Positions 17,645-32,499 of a stretch of 35,037 bases of DNA are shown piece after piece. Position numbers and translations under genes: made by a program. The DNA is taken from contig JAPLQK010000080.1 in NCBI GenBank assembly GCA_026399735.1, forward strand, positions 1 to 35,037. Direction: 5' to 3'. The stretch's first letter is position 1. Every line of letters starts with the position of its first letter. Below the pieces are notes generated by a model. It was not told the DNA's origin. It did not search any database and saw only the letters and a program-made list of their open reading frames with translations. This DNA is from Pseudomonadota bacterium (GTDB taxonomy: Bacteria > Pseudomonadota > Gammaproteobacteria > Burkholderiales > Gallionellaceae).

Positions 17645-17802
17645 GTGGATCAGCGTATTTACGTAGCGGACATTCTAACGAGGTTTACTGTTTTCTGTTC
17701 CCGGTTTTTTTCAGTAAATCAAAACTGCGCTTTGCTATTTCCGGCTACGCGAAAAATAGCACGGTGGTAAAATTGCTGCTGAAAATTCTTAACCCCCATA
17801 TC

Positions 17803-20800
17803 ATGCCGTTACCCGCTTTTGTTCATCTCCGTCTGCACAGCGAATATTCCATCACCGATGGGATGGCGCGCATTGACGAGGCTGTCGAGGCCGCCAGGAA
17901 TGATGGCATGCCGGCGCTGGCGCTGACCGATCTGTCCAATTTTTCCGGTCTGGTGAAGTTTTACAAGAAGGCGCGCAGCAAAGGGATCAAACCGGTTGCA
18001 GGGGTCGATGTCTTTATCACCAATGACGCCGATCGCGACAGGCCTTATCGATTGCTGCTGCTCTGCCAGTCACAGGACGGGTATTTGCGTCTGTGCCGCC
18101 TGCTGTCGCGCGCCTATCTTACCAATCAGTACGGCGATCATGCCGAATTGCGCCGCGAGTGGTTTTGTGAGGAAGGAACGGCGGGTTTAATCGCGTTGTC
18201 CGGTGCGCATCTGGGGGATGTCGGCTGTGCGCTGTTGTCCGGCAATGCGGCGCTTGCGCGACAATTTGCCAAAGAATGGGCTGCGTTGTTCGATGATCGT
18301 TATTACATCGAGGTGCAGCGCGCGGGCTTTGCTGACGAAGAATCGTATATTCACACCGCCACGCTGTTGGCGTCCGAACTCGACTTGCCGGTGGTGGCAA
18401 CCCATCCGGTGCAGTTTCTGACGACCAGCGACTTCAAGGCGCATGAAGCGCGGGTGTGCATCGCCGAAGGCTATGTGCTCAACGATCGCCGCCGACAGAC
18501 GGCATTTACGCCGCAGCAGTATTTCAAGACGCAGGCCGAGATGGGCGAACTGTTCGCCGATTTGCCGGAAGCCTTGCAAAACAGCGTTGAAATCGCGCGC
18601 CGCTGCAATTTGACGCTGGTACTGGGTAAGCCGCAGCTCCCGGACTTCCCCACGCCAAATCATGAGAGTCTGGACGATTTTCTGCTCAGCGAATCCGAGC
18701 ACGGGCTGGCACAGCGCATGCGCCTGCTGTGTCCCGACGAGACCGAACGCGCGGCGAAGCTGCCGCAATACCACGAGCGCTTGCTGTTCGAGATCAATAC
18801 CATCATCAAGATGGGTTTTCCCGGTTACTTTCTGATTGTGGCGGATTTTATCCGCTGGGCGAAAGCCTACCGTTCCGAGGCGTTCCCCAACGGCGTGCCG
18901 GTAGGGCCGGGGCGCGGTTCCGGTGCCGGTTCGCTGGTGGCCTACTGTCTGCTGATCACTGATCTCGATCCGTTGCGCTACGAGTTGCTGTTCGAGCGTT
19001 TCCTGAACCCCGAACGTGTCTCCATGCCCGACTTTGACGTGGACTTCTGTCAGGACGGGCGCGAACTGGTCATCGACTATGTAAAGCAGAAATACGGCGC
19101 GGCGTGCGTGTCGCAGATCGCCACCTTCGGCACCATGGCCTCCAAGGCGGTGATCCGCGATGTGGGTCGGGTGATGGAATTCCCGTATGGCTTGTGCGAC
19201 CGGCTGTCGAAAGCGATTCCGCTGGAGGGCGTCAAACCGGTGTCGCTGAAAAAAGCGCGCGAGATGGAACCGGAGATCAACGCCATAGCGAATAGCGAAG
19301 AAGGCGTACCGGAGTTGCTGGAGTTGGCGATGCGGCTGGAAGATCTGACGCGCAACGTCGGCATGCACGCGGGTGGCGTGGTGATCGCCCCCGGAAAACT
19401 GACCGATTTCTGTCCGCTGTATTGCGCCGATGGCGGGGCGGGTGTGGTGAGCCAGTTCGACAAGGATGACGTCGAAGCGATCGGTCTGGTGAAGTTCGAC
19501 TTTCTGGGACTGCGCACGCTGACCATCATCGACTGGGCCGTGCGGCATATACATCGGCTGGAGAAGGGGGGGCTTGCTTCGCAAGCTGAGAAGGGAGAAG
19601 AGTCCGCAACTGCGTTGCTCAAGGGAGAAGGGGAAGCAACCGCCGCACTGCCTTGTCCCCTCCCCCTTATCCCTTCCCCCTTCTCAATAGAAAGTATTCC
19701 GCTGGACGACAAGCCGAGCTACGATTTGCTGAAAAAATGCAATACCACTGCCGTGTTCCAGCTGGAATCGCGCGGCATGAAGGATCTGATCAAGCGTCTG
19801 CAGCCGGATACGTTTGAAGATATCGTCGCGCTGGTCGCGCTGTTCCGCCCGGGGCCGCTGGAGTCGGGCATGGTGGACGATTTTATCAACCGTAAACACG
19901 GCAAGGCGACGGCGGATTATTTTCATCCTGATCTGGAAGTTTCGCTCAAACCGACTTACGGCGTGATCGTGTATCAGGAACAGGTGATGCAGATTTCGCA
20001 GATCATTGGCGGCTATACGCTGGGCGGCGCGGACATGCTGCGCCGTGCGATGGGCAAGAAGGATCCCGAGGAGATGGCGCGCCAGCGCGACATCTTCGTG
20101 GCCGGTGCGATCAATCGCGAGATTGACAAGAATTTGGCCACCCGGTTGTTCGACCTGATGGAAATGTTTGCAGGTTACGGCTTTAACAAGTCGCATTCGG
20201 CCGCCTATGCGCTGGTGGCCTATCAGACTGCTTTTCTTAAGGCGCATTATCCGGCGGCGTTCATGGCGGCGACCCTGTCGGGCGATCTGGACAACACCGA
20301 AAAAGTGCGCACCTTTTATGCCGATACCTTGCAGCAGGGCATTACGATCTTGCTGCCCGATGTGAACAGCTCCGGTTATGCTTTCTCGCCCACCGATGAA
20401 AAGACCATTGCCTACGGGCTGGGTGCGATCAAAGGCACCGGTGAAGCGGCGATTGCCAGCATTGTCAGGGCCAGAGCTGCCGGCCCGTTCAAGGATTTGT
20501 TCGATTTCTGCCGCCGTGTGGACAAGCGGGCGGTCAATCGCCGCACCATTGAAACGCTGATCCGCGCGGGTGCGTTTGATTCGGTCAGCGATCATCGTGC
20601 CGCGCTGATGGCCAGTGTGGATGCGGCCTTGGCCAGCGCCGATCAGCAGGCGCGGGCGATCAATCAGGACAGCCTGTTCGGCGAGGATGATGCAGATGCC
20701 GTGTTGATTGAGCAGAAACTGGACGTGCCGCGCTGGAGTTTGCGCGAACAGCTGGCGCATGAGAAGACCAGTCTGGGTATCTATCTGGGCGGCCATCCGT

Positions 20801-21411
20801 ATCAGGAATACGAACAGGAACTGGCGAATTTCATCAAGGTTCGTCTGGGCGATCTGACGCCGTCTTTTGTCGGTAAATCGAACGGCAACGGCAGCGGCTA
20901 CGGTGCCAGGCGCGGCGTACAGGTGAGGCTGGCGGGCATCGTGTCAGGGCTTAGGTTGCAGCAGACGCGGCGCGGCCGCATGGCGGTCATCACGCTGGAC
21001 GATGGCAGTGCACAGATTGAAATGACGGTGTTCAACGAGGAATACGAAAAAAGTCGCCAGTGGATCGTGGAGGACGAATTGCTGGTGGTCGAGGGCAAAG
21101 CCAGTCTGGACGAATATTCCGGCAATATCAGGGTCAGCGGCGAGGAGTTGTTCAATTTCGCGCAGGCGCGTTCGCGTTTTGCGCAGCAGCTGGAATTGCG
21201 CTGCAACAGCAAAATAAGCGTTGCCCAACTCAAGACCATAATCGCACCGTGGCGGGAGGGTTCATGTAACATATTGATTAATTACGATAATTCAATTGCA
21301 TCCTGCCAGTTGCGTCCCGGAGGCGCCTGGCAGGTGACGCTGTCCGATGAGCTGCTGAACGAGTTGCGCGAGCTATTGCGGCCGGAAAATGTGCAGGTGG
21401 TGTACGGCTAA
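17803..21411 (+). CDS. dnaE: DNA polymerase III subunit alpha, with an in-frame repeat insertion
   Basis: 1202 residues from ATG 17803 (MPLPAFVHLRLHSEYS); an upstream frame to 17764 is unlikely. PHP domain first (HLRLHSEYSITDGM, LALTDLSNFSGLVKFY), then the polymerase palm with PDFDVDFCQDGR (D410, D412) and the third acidic residue in VKFDFLGL (about 566), fingers (LFRPGPLESGMVDDFINRK, DMLRRAMGKK), helix-hairpin-helix, and a C-terminal OB fold near GVQVRLAGIVSGLR. Catalytic subunit of the replicative polymerase. About 44 residues (roughly 586-630), absent from typical DnaE, come from a palindromic purine-rich repeat inserted in frame at 19561-19685. No Shine-Dalgarno is visible before the ATG. 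Confidence 0.97.
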   Translation: MPLPAFVHLRLHSEYSITDGMARIDEAVEAARNDGMPALALTDLSNFSGLVKFYKKARSKGIKPVAGVDVFITNDADRDRPYRLLLLCQSQDGYLRLCRLLSRAYLTNQYGDHAELRREWFCEEGTAGLIALSGAHLGDVGCALLSGNAALARQFAKEWAALFDDRYYIEVQRAGFADEESYIHTATLLASELDLPVVATHPVQFLTTSDFKAHEARVCIAEGYVLNDRRRQTAFTPQQYFKTQAEMGELFADLPEALQNSVEIARRCNLTLVLGKPQLPDFPTPNHESLDDFLLSESEHGLAQRMRLLCPDETERAAKLPQYHERLLFEINTIIKMGFPGYFLIVADFIRWAKAYRSEAFPNGVPVGPGRGSGAGSLVAYCLLITDLDPLRYELLFERFLNPERVSMPDFDVDFCQDGRELVIDYVKQKYGAACVSQIATFGTMASKAVIRDVGRVMEFPYGLCDRLSKAIPLEGVKPVSLKKAREMEPEINAIANSEEGVPELLELAMRLEDLTRNVGMHAGGVVIAPGKLTDFCPLYCADGGAGVVSQFDKDDVEAIGLVKFDFLGLRTLTIIDWAVRHIHRLEKGGLASQAEKGEESATALLKGEGEATAALPCPLPLIPSPFSIESIPLDDKPSYDLLKKCNTTAVFQLESRGMKDLIKRLQPDTFEDIVALVALFRPGPLESGMVDDFINRKHGKATADYFHPDLEVSLKPTYGVIVYQEQVMQISQIIGGYTLGGADMLRRAMGKKDPEEMARQRDIFVAGAINREIDKNLATRLFDLMEMFAGYGFNKSHSAAYALVAYQTAFLKAHYPAAFMAATLSGDLDNTEKVRTFYADTLQQGITILLPDVNSSGYAFSPTDEKTIAYGLGAIKGTGEAAIASIVRARAAGPFKDLFDFCRRVDKRAVNRRTIETLIRAGAFDSVSDHRAALMASVDAALASADQQARAINQDSLFGEDDADAVLIEQKLDVPRWSLREQLAHEKTSLGIYLGGHPYQEYEQELANFIKVRLGDLTPSFVGKSNGNGSGYGARRGVQVRLAGIVSGLRLQQTRRGRMAVITLDDGSAQIEMTVFNEEYEKSRQWIVEDELLVVEGKASLDEYSGNIRVSGEELFNFAQARSRFAQQLELRCNSKISVAQLKTIIAPWREGSCNILINYDNSIASCQLRPGGAWQVTLSDELLNELRELLRPENVQVVYG
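19561..19685 (+). repeat. Palindromic element inserted in frame in dnaE
   Basis: Perfect 10-bp terminal inverted repeat GAGAAGGGGG (19561-19570) and CCCCCTTCTC (19676-19685). Internal hairpins are GCTTGC-TTC-GCAAGC (19572-19586) and GCAAC-TGC-GTTGC (19606-19618). The encoded peptide is low-complexity (EKGEESATALLKGEGEATAAL...PLPLIPSPF) between the palm and the conserved SIPLDDKPSYDLL block. The purine-rich GGGAGAAG motif is the same as in the arrays upstream of dcd. Confidence 0.8.
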
Positions 21412-21775: not shown

Positions 21776-23785
21776 ATGGACGGATTGAGTATTTTGCCGA
21801 TCGATGTGGTGAGCGGCGTTATATGGTTGTGGATAGCCCTGGGCTTGCTTGGGCTGGCATTGCAACGTGCACCGCATCTGATTTGCCGCATTATCTTTCC
21901 TGTCGGCGCCGGCATTTCACTGCTTCTGACATTAACCGCCCTGTGGGCGCTGGGCACAGTGCCTGATATCGCGGTGTTGCCGCTGGGATTGCCCGATCTG
22001 CCGTTACACCTTCGCCTCGATGCACTTTCCGCATTTTTCCTGATCCTGCTGGGCGCTGCGTCATTCGGCATATCGCTGTACGCTGCCGGATATTTCAAAA
22101 CCATGCAAGGCGGGGTGCTGGGCCTGTTGTGTCTGGAATATTATCTGTTCCTGTCCAGTATGGCTTTGGTCTTGCTGGCGGACGATGCCTACATGTTCAT
22201 GGTGGCCTGGGAAACCATGGCGCTGTCTTCCTACTTCATGGTCACCACGGATCATGCGATTCCCGATATTCGTCGCGCCGGTTTTTTATATCTGTTGATT
22301 GCGCATATCGGCGCGATGGCCATTTTGTTGAGCTTCGGTGTGATGCAAGCCGGGCACGGCATCGGTGCGTACACCTTCGATGCGATGCGCGGCGTGCATT
22401 TGCCGGCAGTCTGGTCATCGATTGCATTTTTGCTGGCGCTTTTCGGCTTCGGGGCCAAGGCAGGCATGCTGCCCATGCATGTCTGGTTGCCCGAAGCGCA
22501 TCCGGCGGCGCCTTCTCCGGTTTCCGCGTTGATGAGCGGCGTGATGCTCAAAATGGCTATTTACGGTATTTTGCGCGTCACCTTCGATCTGCTGGGCACG
22601 CAACTCTGGTGGTGGGGCGTGCTGGCGCTGGGTCTGGGATTGTTCACTGCGATATTCGGCGTGATGTTTGCCGCAGTTCAGGGCGACATGAAACGCCTGC
22701 TCGCCTATTCCTCAATTGAAAATATCGGGCTGATGCTGGCAGGGATTGGTCTGACGCTGATTTTTCATGTCTATGGCAAACAGATGCTGGCGGCCCTGGC
22801 GCTCACCGCGACGCTGTACCACAGCCTCAATCACGCCTGCTTCAAGAGTCTGCTGTTCATCGGCACGGGTTCGATTCTGCATGCCACGGGCGAGCGCAAC
22901 ATGGGGCGTCTGGGCGGCCTGATCCATCAGATGCCACGGACGTCCGTGCTGATGCTGGTCGGTGTGCTGGCGATTGCCGGAATGCCGCCGTTCAATGGTT
23001 TCGTATCGGAATGGTTGCTGTTGCAAGCCTTCCTGCTGTCGCCCGGTTTGCCTGACAGTTATATCAATATGCTGGTGCCTGTGGCGGCGGCAGTGATCGC
23101 GCTGGCGGCGGCACTGGCAGCCTATGTGATGGTTAAATTCTACGGCGTCATCTTCCTCGGGCAGCGCCGCGAAGCGGGTTTGCAACATGCGCATGATGCG
23201 GGACGCTGGGAGATTGCCGGGATGGCCTGGCTGGCAATGCTGTGTGTGGTGTTGGGTTTGGCCCCGGTGTTTGTGGTGGGACAGATCGATCATGTCTCGC
23301 AACTGCTGTTGAATACCCGTCTGGGGAATGCCAGCGCAGACTGGATGTTTCTGGCACCGGTAGATACCGAGCGCGCCAGTTACGGCCCGGTGTATTTCCT
23401 GCTGGCGTTGCTGGGGGTGACGGGGTTGACCACGCTGCTGGTACGTCGCCTTTACCATGGTCGCCTGCGTCGGGGGCCGGCCTGGGATTGCGGCTTCCCT
23501 GCGCAGAATGCGCGCATGCAGGACACCGCCGAAGGCTTCGGTCAACCGATCAGGCGCATCTTCGAGCCATTCTTCCTGATCGAACGGGAAGTGCCAAGTC
23601 CTTTCGATACCCATCCAAAATATTATGGTCGCAGCGAAGATCGACTCTGGTTCATCTTGTACCTGCCGCTCAAACAGGCGACCGAGAAGCTTTCTTCCTG
23701 GATATCGTTGCTGCAGCACGGGCGTATTCATCTGTATCTGACTTACACTTTTGTCACCCTGGTGGTGCTGCTGATCTTCGTGTGA
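21776..23785 (+). CDS. hyfB: Hydrogenase-4-type subunit B, antiporter-like membrane subunit
   Basis: 669 residues, polytopic, matching HyfB/HycC and complex I NuoL-type antiporter subunits. The proton-channel block has the helix-5 glutamate in FMVAWETMALSSYF and the lysine-containing helix FGAKAGMLPMHVWLPEAHPAAPSPVSALMSGVMLK. A long C-terminal extension ends in a lone hydrophobic anchor (LYLTYTFVTLVVLLIFV), as in HyfB. It should move protons or sodium across the cytoplasmic membrane. ATG 21776 abuts AAAGG with almost no spacing, so TTG 21785 is a possible alternative start. It overlaps hyfC by one base (TGATG). First gene of hyfBCEFGI. Confidence 0.93.
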   Translation: MDGLSILPIDVVSGVIWLWIALGLLGLALQRAPHLICRIIFPVGAGISLLLTLTALWALGTVPDIAVLPLGLPDLPLHLRLDALSAFFLILLGAASFGISLYAAGYFKTMQGGVLGLLCLEYYLFLSSMALVLLADDAYMFMVAWETMALSSYFMVTTDHAIPDIRRAGFLYLLIAHIGAMAILLSFGVMQAGHGIGAYTFDAMRGVHLPAVWSSIAFLLALFGFGAKAGMLPMHVWLPEAHPAAPSPVSALMSGVMLKMAIYGILRVTFDLLGTQLWWWGVLALGLGLFTAIFGVMFAAVQGDMKRLLAYSSIENIGLMLAGIGLTLIFHVYGKQMLAALALTATLYHSLNHACFKSLLFIGTGSILHATGERNMGRLGGLIHQMPRTSVLMLVGVLAIAGMPPFNGFVSEWLLLQAFLLSPGLPDSYINMLVPVAAAVIALAAALAAYVMVKFYGVIFLGQRREAGLQHAHDAGRWEIAGMAWLAMLCVVLGLAPVFVVGQIDHVSQLLLNTRLGNASADWMFLAPVDTERASYGPVYFLLALLGVTGLTTLLVRRLYHGRLRRGPAWDCGFPAQNARMQDTAEGFGQPIRRIFEPFFLIEREVPSPFDTHPKYYGRSEDRLWFILYLPLKQATEKLSSWISLLQHGRIHLYLTYTFVTLVVLLIFV

Positions 23786-24744
23786 TGAATAATCCCCATT
23801 TGATTCTGGCTGTTCTTTTCCAACTTACCCAGTTGCTGCTGGTGGTGCTGGCCGCCCCGATGCTGACGGGTTGGGTGAATCAGTGTCAGGCCTGGTTGCA
23901 GAACCGGTCAGGTGCGGGGTTGTTGCAGCCTTATCGCGTATTGAACAAGTTGTTTCACAAGGATGCGGTGATCGCAGATAACGCCTCCTGGCTGTTCCGC
24001 ATCACGCCTTACATCGTTTTTGCCTGCATGTGGCTGGCTGCAGCCATCATTCCCATTCTTGCGGTTGACCTGCCGTTTTCGCAGGCGGCGGACGTGATTG
24101 CGCTGGTCGGTGTGTTCGCGTTGGCGCGCATGTTCATTGCGCTGGCTGCCATGGACATCGGCACCTCGTTTGGCAGCATGGGTGCGCGCCGCGAGATGCT
24201 GGTGTCGTTTCTTGCGGAACCTGCCTTGCTGATGGTGTTTTTCACCGCCTCGATGATCAGTCATTCCACCCAGTTGCCCGGCATTGTCGAGGCCCTTGCG
24301 CACCATCAGTTCGTGCTGTATCCGAGTCTGGCGTTTGCCGGACTGGCTTTTGTGATCGTGCTGCTGGCGGAAAATGCGCGTATTCCGGTAGACAATCCCA
24401 GCACGCATCTGGAACTGACCATGATCCATGAGGCGATGATTCTGGAATATTCGGCACGGCATCTGGCGCTGATCGAATGGGCCAGCAGCCTGAAATTGTT
24501 CGCCTATATCTCCATCGGCATTGCGCTGTTTTTGCCGTATGGCATTGCCGAGATGGGTAACTGGGCGGGTTTGCCCGCAGCGATTGTGTTGCTGGTGGGG
24601 AAGCTGGCTTTGGCAGGCGCGGCGCTGGCTTTGCTTGAAACCGTCTCGGCCAAGATGCGCATTTTCCGCGCCCCTGAATTCCTGGGAACCGCCTTTTTGC
24701 TCGCGGTGCTGGGCCTGTTGATTCATTTTCTGCTGGGGGCGTGA
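23785..24744 (+). CDS. hyfC: Hydrogenase-4-type subunit C, NuoH-like membrane anchor
   Basis: 319 residues from ATG 23785, which shares its A with the hyfB stop. An earlier in-frame extension inside hyfB is non-coding. About eight hydrophobic helices; the signature loop is LLAENARIPVDNPSTHLELTMIHEAMILEYS, the conserved acidic loop of NuoH/HycD-type subunits that couples the peripheral arm to ion pumping. The start MNNPHLILAVLFQLTQLLLVVLAAP fits the family. One-base overlap with hyfE. It forms the membrane dock for the HyfG/HyfI module. Confidence 0.95.
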   Translation: MNNPHLILAVLFQLTQLLLVVLAAPMLTGWVNQCQAWLQNRSGAGLLQPYRVLNKLFHKDAVIADNASWLFRITPYIVFACMWLAAAIIPILAVDLPFSQAADVIALVGVFALARMFIALAAMDIGTSFGSMGARREMLVSFLAEPALLMVFFTASMISHSTQLPGIVEALAHHQFVLYPSLAFAGLAFVIVLLAENARIPVDNPSTHLELTMIHEAMILEYSARHLALIEWASSLKLFAYISIGIALFLPYGIAEMGNWAGLPAAIVLLVGKLALAGAALALLETVSAKMRIFRAPEFLGTAFLLAVLGLLIHFLLGA

Positions 24745-25406
24745 TGCAGATACCGCTCGCACTGCAATTCGTCAATCTGCTGGCATCGATGCTGCTGCTG
24801 ATTGTGTTTGCGATGCTGGCGCAACGGCGCATCCTGTCGCTGATCAATCTGTTCGCCTGGCAGGGTGCCTTGCTCGCGCTGAGTACATTTGTGGTGGCCT
24901 ATACCACCGCGCAGCATCATCTGTACTACTCGGCGGCACTGACCCTGTTGCTCAAGGTCATCGTATTGCCCTGGCTGCTGCACCGGCTGATACGCAAACT
25001 GAACATCCGCTGGGATGTGGAAACGCTGCTGAATATTCCCACCACCATGCTGGCAGGTATTGCGCTGGTGATTTTTTCCTTCAATCTGGCTGCACCCATT
25101 TCGCAAATGTCGCAAGGAATTACGCGCGGGCTGATCGGTATCGCGTTAGCTTCTGTGTTGCTCTCCTTGCTGATGATGCTGACACGGCGCAAGGCGGTGA
25201 CGCAGGTCGTGGCCTTTTTGTCGCTGGAGAACGGTCTGTTTTTTGCGGCCACCAGTGCCACGCAGGGCATGCCGCTGGTGGTGGAGCTGGGCATCGCGCT
25301 GGATGTGCTGGTGGCGACCTTTATCTTCGGTATCTTCTTCTTCCAGATTCGCGAGACCTTTGATAGTCTGGACATCACGCATATGGAGAAACTAAAGGAT
25401 GATTGA
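24744..25406 (+). CDS. hyfE: Hydrogenase-4-type subunit E, NuoK-related membrane subunit
   Basis: 220 residues from ATG 24744 (MQIPLALQFVNLLASML), highly hydrophobic with about seven membrane segments. The C-terminal half has the NuoK-like pattern FLSLENGLFFAATSATQGMPLVVELGIALDVLVA, with membrane-embedded glutamates in SLENG and VVELG that would sit in the proton path. HyfE occurs only in hydrogenase-4-type and related complexes and fuses NuoJ/NuoK-like parts. It overlaps hyfF by eight bases. Confidence 0.93.
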   Translation: MQIPLALQFVNLLASMLLLIVFAMLAQRRILSLINLFAWQGALLALSTFVVAYTTAQHHLYYSAALTLLLKVIVLPWLLHRLIRKLNIRWDVETLLNIPTTMLAGIALVIFSFNLAAPISQMSQGITRGLIGIALASVLLSLLMMLTRRKAVTQVVAFLSLENGLFFAATSATQGMPLVVELGIALDVLVATFIFGIFFFQIRETFDSLDITHMEKLKDD

Positions 25407-26856
25407 CCTGCAACTGATGGCGCTGCTGGGTATCCCGCTGTTGGGCGGCATGTTGCTGGCGTTGTTCGGCGCCCGTCCCTGGGCGGCCGAGCTCAATTCG
25501 TTGATGAGCGGATGCACTTTCATCGCCTCGGTGGTACTGACGCTGCGCGTGATCGACGCAGGCCCGCAGACCGCCTTTAACGAGCAGTTTTTCATTGATC
25601 AGTTCAACGTGTTTCTGGTCGCACTGACCGCTTTCGTCGCCTTTACCACTTCGCTGTTTTCGCGTCCCTATATGCGCATCGAACAGCATCACGGCAAACT
25701 GTCGACTTCCATGCTGCATCTGTATTACAGTATGTATCAGCTGTTCACCTTTACCATGCTGGTTGCGCTTACCACCAACAACATGGGGATCATCTGGGTG
25801 GCGATGGAAGCGGCCACGCTGACGACCGTCTTGCTGGTCAGCCTGTACCGTACCCCGGCCAGTCTGGAAGCGGCGTGGAAATATTTCATCCTGTGCGGCG
25901 TCGGGATAGCGCTGGCGCTGTTCGGCACCATCCTGTTGTATTTCGCCGCCGAGCGCGTGCTGGGCGAAGGCGGCACCGCCTTGTTGTGGACGCATCTGAA
26001 TCAGGTCAAGGGGCAGCTGGAACCCACGGTGCTCAAGCTGGCGTTCGTGTTTTTGCTGGTGGGATACGGTACCAAGATCGGTCTGGTGCCGCTGCACAGC
26101 TGGCTGCCGGACGCGCATGCGGAAGGCCCGACGCCGGTTTCTGCCGTGCTGTCCGGGCTGCTGCTGAACGTGGCGTTGTGCGCGGTGATGCGCAGCAAGG
26201 TACTGGTAGACGGATCTCTGGGGACTCATTTTGCGGGCAACCTGATGATGGGCTTCGGTTTGCTGTCGGTGGTGGTGGCCGCGCTGTTTCTGTCGCGGCA
26301 AAAGGACATCAAGCGCATGTTCGCCTATTCTTCCATCGAACACATGGGGCTGATTACGTTTGCGTTCGGCATGGGCGGGCCGGTCGCCACCTTCGCGGCG
26401 ATGCTGCATATGACCATGCATTCGCTGACCAAGTCGGCGATTTTCTATGCGGTCGGCCATGCGGTGCAAAAGTGTGGCACGCAACAGATGGAGCATATCC
26501 GTGGTCTGATGCAGGTCAGTCCCACCGTCGGCTGGGGGCTGGCGCTGGGCACTTTTGCGATCCTTGGCATGCCGCCGTTCGGGGTGTTCGCCAGCGAATT
26601 TCTGATCATCACCACCGCGATGCACGAATATCCCTGGACCACGCCGATTCTGCTGGCCGCGCTGGGCATCGCGTTCGCGGCAGTTTTCGGCAAGGTGCAG
26701 CCGATGGTGTTCGGTGAAACCACCGTCAAACCCTTGCCGCATCCGCCCGCGCTGATCCCGGTGTTCCTGCATCTGGTGCTGGTGCTGATACTGGGGCTGT
26801 ATATGCCGCCGTATCTGGCGAACTGGTATCGTCAGGCAGCGGCGCTGTTAGGTTAA
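25399..26856 (+). CDS. hyfF: Hydrogenase-4-type subunit F, second antiporter-like subunit
   Basis: 485 residues, a second NuoL/M/N-type channel subunit. Key elements: helix-5 glutamate in IIWVAMEAATLTTVLLVSL, lysine helix YGTKIGLVPLHSWLPDAHAEGPTPVSAVLSGLL, YSSIEHMGLITFAFG, and HMTMHSLTKSAIFY with the membrane lysine. It lacks the C-terminal extension of HyfB. Having both HyfB and HyfF gives two antiporter modules, as in E. coli hydrogenase-4 and unlike Hyc, which has one. It starts inside the end of hyfE; hyfG begins ten bases after the stop. Confidence 0.95.
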   Translation: MIDLQLMALLGIPLLGGMLLALFGARPWAAELNSLMSGCTFIASVVLTLRVIDAGPQTAFNEQFFIDQFNVFLVALTAFVAFTTSLFSRPYMRIEQHHGKLSTSMLHLYYSMYQLFTFTMLVALTTNNMGIIWVAMEAATLTTVLLVSLYRTPASLEAAWKYFILCGVGIALALFGTILLYFAAERVLGEGGTALLWTHLNQVKGQLEPTVLKLAFVFLLVGYGTKIGLVPLHSWLPDAHAEGPTPVSAVLSGLLLNVALCAVMRSKVLVDGSLGTHFAGNLMMGFGLLSVVVAALFLSRQKDIKRMFAYSSIEHMGLITFAFGMGGPVATFAAMLHMTMHSLTKSAIFYAVGHAVQKCGTQQMEHIRGLMQVSPTVGWGLALGTFAILGMPPFGVFASEFLIITTAMHEYPWTTPILLAALGIAFAAVFGKVQPMVFGETTVKPLPHPPALIPVFLHLVLVLILGLYMPPYLANWYRQAAALLG

Positions 26857-26866
26857 GGAACAATCC

Positions 26867-28486
26867 ATGCCGATTACTCATCCCGGTTTGCAGTTGCAGC
26901 GTCTGGCAGGCGCGATTCCCGTCTGGCACGGCAGGATCATTGAGGCCGATCTGCTGCCGGTCTGTGAGAGCGTGCGCGATGGCGGCGGGCGTCTGGTCGC
27001 GTTGTGGGGCAGCGACGAGCGTGTCTTCGGGGCGGGATTTTCATTGCATGTCGTGCTTGTCAATGAGGCCGGACTGATCTGTCTGACGCTGCCGTTGTCA
27101 GCCGTCCAGCCCGATTATCCGGATATCAGCGCTATTTTTCCGGCAGCGAGCCGGATGCAGCGTGCCGCGTATGATCTGTTGGGCATCAGGGCGCGAGACG
27201 CTTGTGATCAGCGAAAATGGCTGCGCCATGCGGCCTGGTCTGAAGGCGCTTATCCGTTGCGCAAGGATTTTGATCACCCCCATTTCGGCTCCTCGCTTCG
27301 CTCTCCTCCCCCTCATCAGGGGGAAGAGGCAATCGACCGTTCTCCTGCGGAGAACGGAACCCAAACCCATGACGACTACCCTTTTGTGCAGGTCGAAGGT
27401 CAGGGGGTGCATGAAATCCCGGTGGGGCCGGTGCATGCGGGCATCATCGAGCCGGGGCATTTTCGTTTCTCTGTGATCGGCGAGCGGGTGCTGCGCCTCG
27501 AAGAACGACTGGGATACGTTCATAAGGGTATAGAAAAACTATTTGAAATCAATAGCTTATATGATGGATGCAAGCTGGCCGGGCGGGTAAGCGGCGATAG
27601 TACGGTGGCCTACGCGTGGGCCTATGCGATGGCGGCTGAGAGCATTGCGAACGTTACGCCACCCGATATAGCCTTGTGGATGCGCGCTTTGTTTCTTGAA
27701 CGCGAACGCATCAGTAATCATCTGGGGGACCTGGGTTACCTCGGTAACGATGTCGCCTTCTCGTTCGGCTTCGCGCAGTTCTGGATACTGAAAGAGCAGC
27801 TGTTGCGCAACAATGCCGAACTGTTCGGACATCGTTACCTGATGGATGCGATTATTCCGGGCGGCGTGAGGGCGGGTATCGATGAATCGGGAAAACAGAC
27901 CCTGCTTGCCGAGTGCGAGATGCTGGAGCGCGAGGTGCGACTGTTGCGCAGTGTGTATGAAGAGCATGCCGGCGTGCAGGATCGTTTTATCGGCACCGGC
28001 AGCGTCGCACCGGAACTGGCCGCACGCTTAGGGTTGTGTGGTCTTGCCGGGCGCGCCAGTTCGCAGGCCTGGGATATGCGTGTGCAGTGTGCAAGTGCGC
28101 CGTATGGCATGCTGGATGTGCAGATGGCCACGCATCGAAATGGCGATGTCGCCGCACGGGTCATCGTGCGTTTCGACGAGATTTTTGAGTCGCTGCGCTT
28201 GCAGCGCGAAATCATGGCAAATCTGCTCGGCGGCGATGATCTGGCGTACCCCGTGTCACAACTCCCCGCAAACGGGTTTGGCATCGGGATGGTAGAGGGG
28301 TGGCGCGGTGAGGTGATGGTGGCGATTCATACCTATGCCGAAGGTAATCCGGACCGCGTGCATCCGCATGACCCTTCCTGGCAAAACTGGCCAGTTTTGG
28401 AACACGCCATCATCGGCAACATCGTGCCGGATTTTCCGCTCATCAATAAATCGTTCAATCTGAGCTATTCAGGACACGATCTGTAA
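26867..28486 (+). CDS. hyfG: Hydrogenase-4/Ehr-type large subunit (NuoC-NuoD fusion) lacking the Ni-Fe cysteines
   Basis: 539 residues: an N-terminal NuoC-like domain (about 1-140, ending in the YPLRKDF block), a repeat-derived linker (about 141-180), and a NuoD/HycE-like domain (about 190-539) beginning VHEIPVGPVHAGIIEPGHFRF. The family helix RLEERLGYVHKGIEKLFE is kept. The proximal ligand motif RxCGxC reads RVSGDS here (S242, S245), and the distal DPCxxC reads DPSWQN (S504, N507). All four Ni-Fe ligands are therefore absent, and no catalytic [NiFe] centre can be built. This is the hallmark of energy-converting hydrogenase-related (Ehr) complexes; electron donor and acceptor are unknown. There is no C-terminal maturation-peptide motif. 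Confidence 0.9.
   Translation: MPITHPGLQLQRLAGAIPVWHGRIIEADLLPVCESVRDGGGRLVALWGSDERVFGAGFSLHVVLVNEAGLICLTLPLSAVQPDYPDISAIFPAASRMQRAAYDLLGIRARDACDQRKWLRHAAWSEGAYPLRKDFDHPHFGSSLRSPPPHQGEEAIDRSPAENGTQTHDDYPFVQVEGQGVHEIPVGPVHAGIIEPGHFRFSVIGERVLRLEERLGYVHKGIEKLFEINSLYDGCKLAGRVSGDSTVAYAWAYAMAAESIANVTPPDIALWMRALFLERERISNHLGDLGYLGNDVAFSFGFAQFWILKEQLLRNNAELFGHRYLMDAIIPGGVRAGIDESGKQTLLAECEMLEREVRLLRSVYEEHAGVQDRFIGTGSVAPELAARLGLCGLAGRASSQAWDMRVQCASAPYGMLDVQMATHRNGDVAARVIVRFDEIFESLRLQREIMANLLGGDDLAYPVSQLPANGFGIGMVEGWRGEVMVAIHTYAEGNPDRVHPHDPSWQNWPVLEHAIIGNIVPDFPLINKSFNLSYSGHDL
27303..27357 (+). repeat. Two adjacent palindromes in the hyfG linker
   Basis: First hairpin: CTCCTCCCCCT (27303-27313), CATC, AGGGGGAAGAG (27318-27328), one mismatch. 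Second: CCGTTCTCC (27337-27345), TGC, GGAGAACGG (27349-27357), perfect. They encode an inter-domain linker rich in Ser, Pro and Glu (LRSPPPHQGEEAIDRSPAENG). The AGAGGCAATCG tail of the first resembles the AGGGGGCAAACG tail of the repeat family at 10355-10413. It looks like an in-frame repeat insertion. Confidence 0.7.
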
Positions 28487-28495
28487 AGGCCATCC

Positions 28496-29023
28496 ATGTA
28501 TCAAATCATCAAACAGATCATCAGGACTGGCATTAAAACGGAAGCGGCACCGCTGCCGGATGAAACCATGCGCGCCACGCCTGCGCGCCTGCAGCAACAG
28601 ATTCTGGACAGGCTGGGCGGCGCATTGAGTATCCGTCTGGTCGATGCCGGATCATGCAATGGCTGCGAGCTGGAAATACATGCAGTCAACAATGCGTATT
28701 ACAACATCGAAGGGCTGGGCATTCGGTTCGTGGCCAGTCCCCGCCACGCGGACATGCTGCTGGTCACAGGGCCGGTGTCGCGCCACATGATGGAGGCGCT
28801 CAGGCGCACCTATGACGCCACGCCGGACCCGAAGCTGGTGGTGGCGATCGGCGAATGCGCCTGCAACGGCGGGATGTTCGCGCCCGATGGCGGACGTGAA
28901 AACTACGCCAGTTGCGGAAAAGTATCCAACGTGATCCCGGTGGATGTGGCTGTCACCGGCTGTCCGCCGACACCGACTGCGATTTTGCAGGGCATACTGA
29001 CTGCGATCAGCAGGCAGATATAA
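28496..29023 (+). CDS. hyfI: Hydrogenase-4-type small subunit, NuoB-like Fe-S protein
   Basis: 175 residues. It keeps the ligands of the N2/proximal [4Fe-4S] cluster: DAGSCNGCELE (C54, C57), GECACNGG (C121; C123 extra) and TGCPPTP (C156). The N-terminus (MYQIIKQIIRTG) is the usual start of the HycG/HyfI group, but the protein ends soon after the CPP helix and is shorter than E. coli HyfI. It lies nine bases after hyfG. With HyfG it forms the peripheral arm. No ferredoxin-like subunit (HyfA, HyfH or NuoI type) follows, so the source of electrons to this cluster is not encoded here. Confidence 0.93.
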   Translation: MYQIIKQIIRTGIKTEAAPLPDETMRATPARLQQQILDRLGGALSIRLVDAGSCNGCELEIHAVNNAYYNIEGLGIRFVASPRHADMLLVTGPVSRHMMEALRRTYDATPDPKLVVAIGECACNGGMFAPDGGRENYASCGKVSNVIPVDVAVTGCPPTPTAILQGILTAISRQI

Positions 29024-29041: not shown

Positions 29042-31165
29042 TTATTTTATTCGCATTCCCGGTTGTGCGCCGTCGTCCGGGCTGAGGATAAACAAACCGG
29101 GCGCATCGCCTGAAGCCGCCAGCACCATACCTTCCGACAGGCCGAACTTCATCTTGCGCGGCGCCAGATTGGCGACCATCACGGTCATGCGACCCTTGAG
29201 CAATTCAGGGTCGTAAGCCGACTTGATACCGGCAAATACGGTGCGCGGCTGTTCTTCGCCGATGTCCAGCGTCAGTTTCAGCAGTTTTTCCGCACCGGTC
29301 ACATGTTCGGCATTGACGATCTTCGCGACGCGCAGATCGATTTTTGAAAAATCCTCGATTGATATCAATGGCGCAATAGCGTTTGCCCCCTCATCCTTTA
29401 AGGGCTGGGGTGCGGGTAAAGGTTGTTGAGCAACCGCGTGACGGGTTTGTGAATGGGATTCGGTCACGGGTTTCAGGCTTTCCAGATTGGCGGCGGTCAT
29501 CGCTTCAACCAGTTTCGGGTCGAGACGGGTCGCCAGATGTTGATAGGTGTTGATAAGGTGTCCGGCGGGCAAGGCTTGCCAGTCGCTATTCCAGGCCAGC
29601 GGTACAATGTTGAGGAACGCTTCGACTTGCTCCGCCAGCACCGGCAGCACGGGTTTCAGATACAGCGTCAGGTCGCGGAACAGCGTCATCGCAGTCGAAC
29701 AGGCGACATGCAGATCGGCTTCACGCCCTTCCTGTTTTGCCAGCTCCCATGGTTTTTGTTCGGCGATGTACTGATTTGCCACATCCGCCAGGCGCATGAT
29801 TTCGCGTAATGCACGGGCAAAGTCGCGCTGCTCATAGCAATGCGCGATTGCACCGTCCTGGTAAGCGGACTGGAATTCGGCTGCGGCAGCTGCATCGGTC
29901 GCCCCGAGTTTGCCGTCGAATTTTTTGGCGATGAATCCCGCGCAGCGGCTGGCGATATTGATGTATTTGCCGATCAGATCGGAATTGACCTTGGCGACGA
30001 AGTCGTCGAGATTCAGATCCAGGTCTTCCATCGTGCCGTTGATCTTGGCGGCGTAGTAGTAGCGCAGATATTCGGTATTTTTTATATTGTCGATGTAGCT
30101 CTTGGCGGTGATAAAGGTGCCGCGCGACTTGCTCATCTTCTCGCCGTTGACGGTCAGGAAACCGTGCGCAAACAGTTTGGTAGGCGTGCGGAAGCCTGAA
30201 TGTTCAAGCATCGCCGGCCAGAACAGCGCGTGGAAATATAAAATATCCTTGCCGATGAAGTGATACAGCTCGGTCGTCGAATCCGGCTTCCAGTATTCCT
30301 CGAAATCTAAAACAGTTTTCGGTTTGCCGTTTTCGGTTTGGCTGTTGCACAGTTGTTTGAAGCTGCCCATATAGCCGACCGGCGCGTCCAGCCAGACGTA
30401 AAAATATTTTCCCGGTGCGTCGGGTATCTCGAAACCGAAATACGGCGCATCGCGCGAAATGTCCCAGTCGGACAGCTTGTTTTCGCCCTCTGCGCCCAGC
30501 CACTCCTGCATCTTGTTGGCAGCCTCCGGTTGCAGCGAACCGCTGCGTGTCCAGCTGCGCAGGAACTGCTGGCAGGTATCGGCGGACAATTTGAAAAAAT
30601 AGTGATCCGAATTGCGCATCTCGGGTTTTGCACCGGATACGGCGGAATACGGGTTGATCAGTTCGATCGGTGCGTAAGCTGCGCCGCAGACTTCGCAGTT
30701 GTCGCCGTATTGATCTTTCGCGTGGCATTTCGGACATTCGCCCTTGATGAAACGATCCGGCAGGAACATGTTCTTGACCGGGTCGTAATATTGTTCGATG
30801 GAACGCACTTCGATCAGGTTGGCCGCTTTCAGTTTGCGATAGATGCCTTGGGCAAACTCTTTTGTTTCATTCGAATTGGTCGAACCGTAGTGATCAAATG
30901 CAACATGAAACGCCGCGAAGTCGTCGTAGTGTTCCTGCCACACCCGCGCGATCAAAGCTTCCGGCGTGATACCTTCCGCTTCGGCGCGCAGCATGATCGG
31001 CGTGCCGTGCGTGTCGTCGGCGCATACATAATTTACCTCGTGGCCTTGCATTTTCTGGAAGCGCACCCAGATGTCGGTCTGGATGTATTCGACCAGATGA
31101 CCCAGGTGGATGCTGCCGTTGGCATAGGGGAGGGCGGAGGTGACGAGGATTTTTCGCGTAGTCAT
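29042..31165 (-). CDS. metG: Methionyl-tRNA synthetase
   Basis: 707 residues, full length. The HIGH-like motif is in [12 protein letters not shown], the zinc-binding insertion [17 protein letters not shown] is of the long (MetG1) type, and the KMSKS loop reads KMSKSRGTF. The anticodon-binding helical domain follows, then a C-terminal Trbp111-like tRNA-binding domain ([13 protein letters not shown]...[20 protein letters not shown] [17 protein letters not shown]). It charges tRNA-Met. The linker between the last two domains (about 575-600) contains sequence from the palindromic repeat family seen at 7434 and 10355. Convergent with hyfI, 18 bases apart. Confidence 0.98.
29383..29419 (-). repeat. 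Palindromic repeat family copy inside metG
   Basis: On the minus strand: CCCGCACCCCAGCCCTTAAA, GGATGAGGGGGCAAACGC. The intergenic copy at 10355 reads CCCTCACCCCAACCCT at the start and GTAGAGGGGGCAAACG at the end, so the two flanks match while the core is shortened. In-frame peptide [16 protein letters not shown] lies in the linker between the anticodon and tRNA-binding domains. Confidence 0.65.
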
Positions 31166-31312
31166 TTGGACGTGCCGGATTCTAAAAGTGCGGCTATTTT
31201 AGCAAATCGCGCGCACTGGCGGCGAATTGGTTAGAATTACGCCATTGCGATTATTTATAAACAAATATCGGCGTTTTAAAAGACGGGCTACAAAATACTT
31301 AAAAGGAGAAGC

Positions 31313-31450
31313 GGGAAGAGGGAAGAGGGAAGAGGGAAGGGTGTAACAAGAAGGGAGAAGGGAGAAGGGTAACTGCGGTTCAGCGTTTTTTCCCTTCACT
31401 CTTCCCTCTTCCCAAATTCCCCTTCTCCCTTCTCCCTTCTCCCTTCTCCC
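31313..31450 (+). repeat. Heptanucleotide purine/pyrimidine arrays in the dcd leader
   Basis: Four blocks in order: (GGGAAGA)3 plus a partial unit (31313-31340), GGGAGAA units (about 31353-31369), CTTCCCTCTTCCC (31401-31413), and (TTCTCCC)4 (31423-31450). Block 1 is complementary to block 3 and block 2 to block 4, and cross-pairing is also possible, so alternative hairpins or a pseudoknot could form just before dcd. The strand asymmetry also allows triplex (H-DNA) structures. The 31166-31312 stretch upstream holds the metG start region and no gene. Confidence 0.85.
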
Positions 31451-31457
31451 AAAAGCA

Positions 31458-32024
31458 ATGAGCATCAAATCAGACAAATGGATACGCCGTATGGCGGAGC
31501 AGCACGGCATGATCGAACCGTTTTCGCCCACGCAGGTGAAAGAAGTCGATGGCAAACGCATCGTGTCCTACGGCACGTCCAGCTACGGCTACGATATTCG
31601 CTGCTCGAACGAATTCAAGCTGTTTACCAATATCAACAGTACCATCGTCGACCCGAAGAATTTCGATCCGAATTCCTTTGTCGAGGTGACGGCCGATTAT
31701 TGCATCATCCCGCCCAATTCGTTCGCGCTGGCGCGCACCGTGGAGTATTTCCGCATTCCGCGTTCCGTGCTGACGGTCTGTCTTGGCAAGTCCACTTACG
31801 CGCGTTGCGGCATCATTGTCAACGTCACGCCGTTCGAGCCTGAATGGGAAGGTTATGTGACGCTGGAATTTTCCAATACCACGCCGCTGCCTGCCAAGAT
31901 TTACGCCAACGAAGGCATCGCACAGGTGCTGTTCTTCGAGAGCGATGAAGTCTGCGAAACGTCCTACAAGGATCGCGGCGGCAAGTATCAGGGGCAGGTT
32001 GGCGTCACGTTGCCAAAGATGTAA
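31458..32024 (+). CDS. dcd: dCTP deaminase
   Basis: 188 residues from ATG 31458 ([22 protein letters not shown]). Family blocks: [95 protein letters not shown] with the catalytic glutamate in this last block, and the C-terminal [14 protein letters not shown]. It deaminates dCTP to dUTP for dTMP synthesis. There is no Shine-Dalgarno: the ATG follows a four-copy TTCTCCC array and AAAAGCA. The next gene overlaps the stop by one base. Confidence 0.97.
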
Positions 32025-32251
32025 TGTCCGTGTCACATGACAAGCAAATAATCTGGCGTTCGCCAAAAGATGAGGTGATCGCCTGCGTGGAAAAGAACAA
32101 GGTGATGAGCGAAAATCTTGAAGAAATTCGTCAGGTTTGTCAGGATGCGCTCGATGATGCGGTGCTGATGGGCTGCGACGAGCAACAGGTGCGGCAGGTT
32201 CTGGTTGGCTTGATCGGTGATCTGGTTGTTTCTTACTCGCCTCAGGAATAA
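32024..32251 (+). CDS. Small hypothetical protein coupled to dcd
   Basis: 75 residues starting at ATG 32024, which shares its first base with the dcd stop (TAATG). The protein is acidic and helical-looking (MSENLEEIRQVCQDALDDAVLMGCDEQQVRQVLVGLIGDLV), has two Cys that are not paired in a metal motif, and has no signal peptide or membrane helix. I do not recognise a family with certainty. The coupling implies co-expression with dCTP deaminase, but a functional link is not shown by the sequence. Confidence 0.7.
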   Translation: MSVSHDKQIIWRSPKDEVIACVEKNKVMSENLEEIRQVCQDALDDAVLMGCDEQQVRQVLVGLIGDLVVSYSPQE

Positions 32252-32275
32252 AAACAAAACACGCTTGCGCTGGCG

Positions 32276-32463
32276 TGTAAATCTGCGACAATCCGCGCCA
32301 ATTCGTATTAACCTGTTATCCCAATAGGGAGTAAATAAATGAAGTTTCGTTTTAGTTTCGGCATTGCCAAAGTGCGATGCCTCACTGAAGTGGTGTACGC
32401 AGGCATTTTGCCAAAAGGCAAAAGCTCGCAAACTTCGTTTTCTTTCGCTTTGTAAATCTGCGA
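32276..32463 (+). repeat. 13-bp direct repeat flanking a leader ORF
   Basis: TGTAAATCTGCGA occurs exactly at 32276-32288 and 32451-32463, 175 bases apart. Each copy is followed by AT-rich sequence, a GGGAG ribosome-binding site and an ATG opening with Met-Lys-Phe-Arg-Phe codons (32339 and 32500). It suggests that the decarboxylase gene's 5' region has been partly duplicated. Confidence 0.75.
32339..32455 (+). CDS. 38-codon leader ORF upstream of the decarboxylase
   Basis: Begins at ATG 32339 with AGGGAG seven bases upstream (32326-32331), the same spacing as the decarboxylase's own site. The product starts MKFRFSFGIAKVRC and ends SFSFAL at TAA 32453-32455; the decarboxylase starts MKFRFPIIII. 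A hairpin TTTTGCC-AAAA-GGCAAAA (32406-32423) lies within it. It may be a regulatory leader peptide, comparable in position to the leader ORF that controls enterobacterial ornithine decarboxylase, or a degenerate duplicate of the gene's start. No homologue is recognised. Confidence 0.45.
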   Translation: MKFRFSFGIAKVRCLTEVVYAGILPKGKSSQTSFSFAL

Positions 32464-32499
32464 GTATTTAATACTATTTTTCCCGTTGGGAGTTTATAT

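Follow-up and report, generated by a model that had tools for sequence, protein, structure and literature searches.

The 35,037-nucleotide stretch of DNA analyzed here (the window; contig JAPLQK010000080.1 of the Gallionellaceae assembly GCA_026399735.1) carries a six-gene operon, hyfB-hyfC-hyfE-hyfF-hyfG-hyfI (positions 21776 to 29023, forward strand). Analysis of this operon revealed that it encodes a real and conserved energy-converting hydrogenase-related (Ehr) complex, a kind of complex that is already known and whose function is unproven. In RuBisCO-bearing members of the order to which the window belongs, the cassette is associated with inorganic-carbon genes; this link is a correlation, clear inside that one order and weak beyond it. 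We tentatively suggest that the Ehr complex has a role in inorganic-carbon supply, a suggestion that extends to the window operon itself by relatedness alone.

Ehr complexes are known as relatives of hydrogenases that lack the Ni-Fe ligands, with functions given as unproven or merely suspected in the sections of the papers cited here (PMC6349859, PMC10284858, PMC7304191). Clusters of lithotrophs that belong, or very probably belong, to the subfamily of the window appeared in print under the names formate hydrogenlyase or group-4 hydrogenase. The residue evidence speaks against a hydrogenase and equally against a quinone enzyme of the complex-I type. The gene neighborhoods provide a concrete first hypothesis for the role of Ehr. 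If true, an energy-coupled step would be added to carbon supply in iron- and sulfur-oxidizing bacteria.

The large subunit HyfG has lost all Ni-Fe ligands

A preliminary description of the window had placed the two degenerate ligand motifs of HyfG at RVSGDS (L1; S242 and S245) and DPSWQN (L2; S504 and N507). HMMER and MAFFT alignments with other large subunits confirmed the first assignment, with both L1 cysteines missing. The second was ruled out by HMMER, MAFFT and structure alignment. In the HMMER alignment, FNLSYSGHD of HyfG fell on LDPCYSCTD of HycE and DPSWQN on AATYAN, the MAFFT alignment likewise put L2 at the C-terminal end of HyfG, and the structure alignment placed HyfG residue 539 on HycE residue 537. 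The L2 region of HyfG is NLSYSGHDL at the extreme C terminus, so that HyfG ends level with mature HycE; the tail past L2 comprises 0 residues in HyfG versus 32 in HycE. Since S533 and G536 occupy the positions of the missing L2 ligands, the conclusion that the large subunit has lost every Ni-Fe ligand stands despite the misplaced motif, at the corrected positions S242, S245, S533 and G536. Among relatives, cysteine was found at position 242 in 11/177 sequences, at 245 in 2/177, at 533 in 1/174 and at 536 in 0/173. Because the HyfG head has no Ni-Fe site, the complex very probably neither evolves nor consumes H2.

Residues H190, E195, D244, N527, K528, Y534 and D538 of HyfG were invariant (172 to 177 relatives per position). 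This conservation pattern indicates that the old Ni-Fe pocket is not decaying and that a new, invariant polar pocket has taken its place. The quinone contacts of complex I, which we take to be His38 and Tyr87 of Thermus Nqo4, aligned with I194 and G243 of HyfG in both HMMER and MAFFT, and position 243 was glycine in 175/177 relatives. Cysteines being rare at the ligand positions and the quinone His/Tyr pair being replaced, the HyfG pocket is predicted not to be a Ni-Fe site, and not to be a quinone site of the complex-I type either. The quinone partner favored in the preliminary description therefore lacks residue-level support; this residue evidence concerns the complex-I type, and a quinone may be bound in another way. 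Reverse electron flow, proposed at the same time, found no direct support, and the assembly also has NuoB-, NuoC- and NuoD-like genes on another contig (C113). Structure alignment revealed a head fold common to HyfG, HycE and complex I subunit D. The HyfG structure model had pLDDT values below 50 at residues 141 to 218 and 535 to 539, where the pocket would lie, and for this reason no claim about a cavity was drawn from it.

The small subunit and the membrane arm are conserved

The four cluster cysteines of HyfI (C54, C57, C121 and C156) were invariant in 169 to 171 relatives, which bears out the [4Fe-4S] small subunit as intact. The same holds for the ion-channel subunits. In HyfB, Glu146 was kept in 159/160, Lys228 in 162/162 and Glu412 in 165/166 relatives (transmembrane helices 5, 7 and 12); in HyfF, Glu137, Lys226 and Glu400 were invariant in 167 to 171 relatives; and in HyfC, residues E196, R199, D203, E210, H215, E216 and E221 were invariant in 159 to 160 relatives. 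With both the cluster cysteines and the charged HyfC residues invariant, electron transfer is probably kept in the complex.

The operon thus combines a group-4/NuoD-type large subunit without the L1 and L2 cysteines, NuoH-like and antiporter-like membrane subunits and an intact [4Fe-4S] subunit, and its assignment to the Ehr complexes holds. Of the reported absences, those of ferredoxin-like subunits and formate dehydrogenase stood, as the cassette encodes no ferredoxin subunit and no formate dehydrogenase match lay alongside it; that of hyp maturation genes was correct for the neighborhood and incorrect for the assembly, in which HypD is encoded on contig C72. In a 42-row tree, HyfG of the window clustered with relatives that likewise lack the ligands, from Proteobacteria, Acidobacteria and Myxococcota.

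Distribution of the cassette and co-occurrence with RuBisCO

A protein search for relatives returned at least 8000 matching candidates, of which the best 120 were all at least 69% identical; named close relatives among the matches listed were Gallionella, Sideroxydans and their kin. Among 89 loci, the window included, all six genes were matched in 78 and stood in the order of the window in 76. The two others had six matches in a different order, on contigs that break off inside the operon. Of the 11 loci with fewer matches, ten had an operon truncated by the end of the contig, and the remaining one (L091) had no hyfI match.

The distribution was determined in 250 genomes of the order of the window and in a class sample of 274 genomes, nearly all outside the order. 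Ehr was called at more than 400 bits, which left out matches of about 230 to 300 bits (mostly other group-4 types) and of about 116 to 160 bits (NuoD). RuBisCO was counted at E values below 1e-100 (order) or 1e-90 (class), and weaker RuBisCO-like matches were dropped. The Ehr type was present in 64/250 order genomes, with scores well apart from those of other group-4 proteins and NuoD. RuBisCO was found in 44/64 Ehr genomes versus 49/186 others (odds ratio, 6.2; p 4e-9) and, counted by family, in 17/26 versus 7/23 (p 0.02).

DabA, the marker of another inorganic-carbon machine, showed no overall association with Ehr (12/64 Ehr versus 38/186 other genomes). Among RuBisCO genomes it occurred in 10/44 with and 20/49 without Ehr (p 0.08; within families, odds ratio of 0.23 and p 0.06), a tendency toward mutual exclusion that stayed below significance.

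Two loci (L164 and L046) carried two Ehr large subunits of the window type in tandem, about 7 to 8 kb apart on the same contig. A further locus (L209) had an Ehr-type hyfG with at least 8 kb on each side and no same-strand match of the other five subunits nearby; it is possibly a stand-alone or rearranged copy.

Inorganic-carbon genes upstream of the cassette

Neighboring genes were analyzed in 64 order-level loci from 62 genomes (two genomes with two loci each; genomes within one family are not independent) and in a set of 177 loci, made up of 80 loci picked for their similarity to the query, 63 from the order sample and 34 from the class sample (two of the latter from one genome), in which the same species was possibly counted twice. 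The preliminary description had suggested a survey for a conserved redox partner. None was found beside the cassette among the FdhF, HycB/F/H/I and HypA/B/C queries (other redox families were not queried); inorganic-carbon genes recurred instead.

In 17/64 order-level loci, SulP transporter genes (15 loci), gamma-carbonic anhydrase genes (6 loci) or both were located upstream on the same strand, the nearer of the two lying 2 to 850 bp from hyfB. All 17 loci belonged to RuBisCO genomes and came from five families. Such loci were present in 17/44 RuBisCO genomes versus 0/18 RuBisCO-negative genomes (p 0.0013; two genomes with fragmentary hits left out) and, among genomes with at least 1 kb upstream, in 17/39 (window included) versus 0/15 (p 0.002; 8 loci with less than 1 kb left out). 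By chance, about 0.16 SulP genes would be expected where 15 were observed, an estimate based on the four SulP genes of the window assembly alone. In the 177-locus set, SulP lay upstream on the same strand within 4 kb in 26 loci. The gamma-carbonic anhydrase matched Cam of Methanosarcina (E of about 1e-29). A CsoSCA-like carbonic anhydrase was found nearby in 7/177 loci, one of them outside the order; the one locus run in Pfam gave 24.9 bits against a cutoff of 21.5, and a second was a weak match to CsoSCA structures (E 0.0005).

Genes of the cbb type were found near the cassette in six loci (L031, L032, L070, L173, L178 and L184). In L032, from a metagenome-assembled genome named Thiobacillus denitrificans, hyfBCEFGI is preceded by SulP, a gamma-carbonic anhydrase-like gene and a ribbon-helix-helix (RHH) gene, in that order, and followed by SpeE-like, CbbO-like and CbbQ genes, a small gene, CbbL and then genes for a LysR regulator and a NuoL-like protein.

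Several results weigh against a role in carbon supply. The window locus itself has no SulP, carbonic anhydrase or cbb neighbors, and 47/64 order-level loci, the window among them, have neither SulP nor carbonic anhydrase. In the class set, SulP was near in 1/34 loci and gamma-carbonic anhydrase in none. Plasmid copies from Rhizobium and Burkholderiaceae adjoin other annotated genes, and the annotated stretches examined around these and the Methylocalor plasmid copies contained no SulP, carbonic anhydrase or cbb neighbors. The SulP protein passed the sulfate-permease model and scored far under the BicA cutoff; among solved structures, its nearest relative transports sulfate, and it may carry sulfate itself. 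At the cut used, RuBisCO was not found in 20/64 Ehr genomes. Within families, the RuBisCO link came from just 3 informative families (p 0.046), and shared ancestry may for that reason explain part of the co-occurrence. At class level the link was not significant (19/34 versus 109/240; p 0.27), and a general link between Ehr and RuBisCO across the class was rejected.

Possible functions of the complex

In the tentatively preferred role in carbon supply, the membrane module of HyfB, HyfC, HyfE and HyfF would translocate ions and the HyfG/HyfI head would hold one [4Fe-4S] cluster and no Ni-Fe center. The former Ni-Fe pocket or partner proteins would link ion flow through the membrane arm to the supply of CO2/bicarbonate or to a pH control tied to that supply. 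SulP would carry the anion, with carbonic anhydrase converting CO2 to bicarbonate and back. A more specific version is rather doubtful: that the subfamily joins the cyanobacterial NDH-1MS and the proteobacterial DAB as a third inorganic-carbon machine derived from complex I, that its arm powers bicarbonate accumulation together with SulP and carbonic anhydrase, and that it tends to replace DAB in RuBisCO-bearing members of the order.

A redox-driven ion pump, as envisaged in the preliminary description, is possible though doubtful. Electrons would pass from a donor through the [4Fe-4S] cluster to a quinone or other acceptor in the old Ni-Fe cavity. The invariant cluster cysteines and charged HyfC residues and the fold shared with HycE and complex I subunit D are consistent with such a pump; the replacement of the complex I quinone Tyr/His (G243 and I194) and the lack of an electron-input subunit encoded in the cassette argue against it. 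A stress or pH device is unlikely. Here a cation/proton antiporter-like module would be regulated by low O2 or acid, as could fit the RHH gene in 34/177 loci, the SpeE-like gene in 19/177, the genes for universal stress or HPr-like proteins close to plasmid copies in Burkholderiaceae and the pH roles proposed in the parts of two papers considered (PMC3826726, PMC5178258). The head would then serve structure alone, a role that does not call for the observed invariance of cluster cysteines and pocket residues.

A formate-linked complex, in which a separate formate dehydrogenase would dock on Ehr and electrons would exit by some route, is quite improbable. A complex of formate dehydrogenase with Ehr has been proposed for Riflemargulisbacteria (PMC6349859), a cluster of Sideroxydans was published as formate hydrogenlyase (PMC5178258), and Ehr proteins of Geobacter rise on formate (PMC7894505), which also speaks against the carbon-supply role; these sources were considered in part. 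Azospirillum queries for FdhF, HycB and HycF gave no match beside the cassette in the 64 order-level and 34 class-level loci, however, and the published formate-linked Ehr types may be other subfamilies. A cryptic hydrogenase with other metal ligands is close to refuted, since against HypD in the window assembly and in 40/64 Ehr genomes stand the rarity of cysteine at all four ligand sites in relatives, the absence of HypD from 24/64 Ehr genomes (16/54 when counting genomes with completeness of at least 90% and contamination of no more than 5%) and the lack of a C-terminal extension for a maturation protease.

The carbon-supply role has a partial precedent in print. In Acidithiobacillus caldus, one hyf cluster adjoins a beta-carbonic anhydrase gene and another, a core copy, sits with carbon-fixation genes; the authors regarded the product as an H2-evolving hydrogenase with a possible contribution to pH and CO2 homeostasis (PMC3826726). 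In the portions considered, this proposal is the nearest printed idea in the open-licence literature searched. The six-gene cluster of Acidithiobacillus ferrooxidans is AFE2149-54 (PMC2621215) and cbbM is AFE_2155 (PMC6458275), and the two would be adjacent judging from the locus numbers alone. The Sideroxydans cluster called formate hydrogenlyase is from acidophilic members (PMC5178258). A review, in the part consulted, reports that carbonic anhydrase genes adjoin those of formate hydrogenlyase or formate dehydrogenase in Wood-Ljungdahl organisms, an arrangement it finds hard to explain (PMC10880623). A prior proposal of Ehr, as a non-hydrogenase, in inorganic-carbon supply was not found in the open-licence literature searched, subscription papers lying outside this scope. 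New here are the order-level co-occurrence with RuBisCO and the upstream SulP/gamma-carbonic anhydrase neighbors of the Ehr cassette.

Operon layout and other neighboring genes

Gene calls and family matches bore out the hyfBCEFGI order with tight packing (Table 1); neighboring genes overlap or are spaced by 9 to 10 bases. Pfam and NCBIfam classified five products as NuoL-, NuoH-, NuoM/N-, NuoCD- and NuoB-like and the hyfE product, below the cutoff, as a hydrogenase-4 membrane subunit.

Table 1. Genes of the operon and ligand-site features of HyfG, in window coordinates
Feature	Position	Strand	Description
hyfB	21776..23785	+	NuoL-like antiporter subunit, 669 amino acids; Proton_antipo_M; NCBIfam hydrogenase 4 subunit B, 912 bits vs 667 cutoff
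hyfC	23785..24744	+	NuoH-like membrane subunit; NADHdh, 123 bits; ATG overlapping hyfB stop
hyfE	24741..25406	+	HyfE-like membrane subunit; NCBIfam hydrogenase 4 membrane subunit, 78.5 bits, under 136 cutoff; no Pfam family
hyfF	25399..26856	+	NuoM/N-like antiporter subunit; NCBIfam hydrogenase 4 subunit F, 880 bits vs 543
hyfG	26867..28486	+	Large subunit without ligands, NuoC+NuoD-like
L1 site of HyfG, RVSGDS, residues 240-245	27584..27601	+	Ser at both Cys positions (S242, S245)
DPSWQN, residues 502-507	28370..28387	+	Not L2; aligns to AATYAN of HycE and SPSYHN of four-Cys hydrogenase
True L2 region, residues 527-539, NKSFNLSYSGHDL	28445..28483	+	Cys positions are S533, G536; HyfG ends here
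hyfI	28496..29023	+	Small subunit, one [4Fe-4S] site (C54, C57, C121, C156); Oxidored_q6; aligned to E. coli HycG

The operon is flanked by dnaE (17764-21411) and a convergent metG (29042-31165). An Orn/Lys/Arg decarboxylase gene follows metG (29042-34746 for both), as in some Gallionellaceae. metG was found within 4 kb of the cassette in 26/177 loci in either orientation and may mark a favored insertion place; as a functional neighbor it was rejected, since it looks like a conserved chromosomal position. Elsewhere, the assembly encodes RuBisCO on contig C74 and the four SulP proteins, and no DabA match was found in it; at a completeness of 82%, genome-wide absences are unsafe.

A ribbon-helix-helix gene, mostly divergent and at a median distance of 155 bp, was located upstream of the cassette in the loci counted above (e.g., L032:4532-4801; RHH_9 in Pfam), and its product is a candidate dedicated regulator. 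A spermidine-synthase-like gene lay within 4 kb in 17/80 genome-contig, 2/34 class and 0/63 order-sample loci (e.g., L017:12086-12928 and L056:4048-4875). A link to the lxa low-oxygen locus of Burkholderia was dropped, as "hydrogenase" is not mentioned in the Burkholderia literature among the matches listed, and mycobacterial Rv0081-0087 was set aside as a model.

Just upstream of one Ehr cassette, a group-4 large subunit with four Ni-Fe cysteines (RICGVC and ELCYSCTDR) is encoded (L026:2214-3563). Like Ehr, it has no C-terminal tail past L2 and may therefore mature without a peptidase. Three other loci encode a second ligand-less complex in the same stretch as the Ehr cassette (L004:1597-3461, L048:1614-3732 and L074); its small subunit has extra ferredoxin-like cysteines in L004 and L048, and the large subunits of all three form their own branch.

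Comparison with known systems

HycI cleaves the C-terminal tail of the formate hydrogenlyase large subunit; beside the cassette, no HycI match was found in the loci queried. HycE of the Escherichia coli formate hydrogenlyase (7z0s) has the Cys ligands and the 32-residue tail, whereas HyfG of the window lacks both, and the cassette has no HycB, HycF, HycH or HycI and no formate dehydrogenase alongside. With none of the four Ni-Fe cysteines, no tail past L2 and no HycB/HycF in the operon, the complex differs from hydrogenase-4 and formate hydrogenlyase alike. It differs from complex I in that the quinone-site Tyr/His of subunit D (NuoD) are replaced by G243 and I194 and that the cassette has no NADH module.

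NDH-1MS has a CupA-type CO2-hydrating subunit. None of the six operon products matched DabA (PF10070), and the conserved core has no carbonic anhydrase subunit; the cassette differs in these respects from DAB2 and NDH-1MS, the complex-I-related proton channels coupled to CO2 hydration that are a possible model for Ehr (PMC13144422, considered in part).

With the Ehr complexes described in the parts of PMC6349859, PMC10284858 and PMC7304191 considered, the window operon shares the group-4-like ligand-less large subunit and the antiporter-like subunits. Compared with other Ehr complexes, its subfamily is distinguished by six genes, a single cluster and the lack of a ferredoxin subunit, and has a link to carbon in the order of the window. 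Hydrogenase-like clusters of Acidithiobacillus, for which the motifs SGD[TS][TS][AV][GA]Y and NLSYSGHDL were printed in 2018, have six genes and both motifs as in the window (PMC6002666). Given these common motifs, the Acidithiobacillus clusters belong to the subfamily of the window; their authors consider either a putative formate hydrogenlyase or some novel complex, with no carbon role in the text consulted (PMC6002666).

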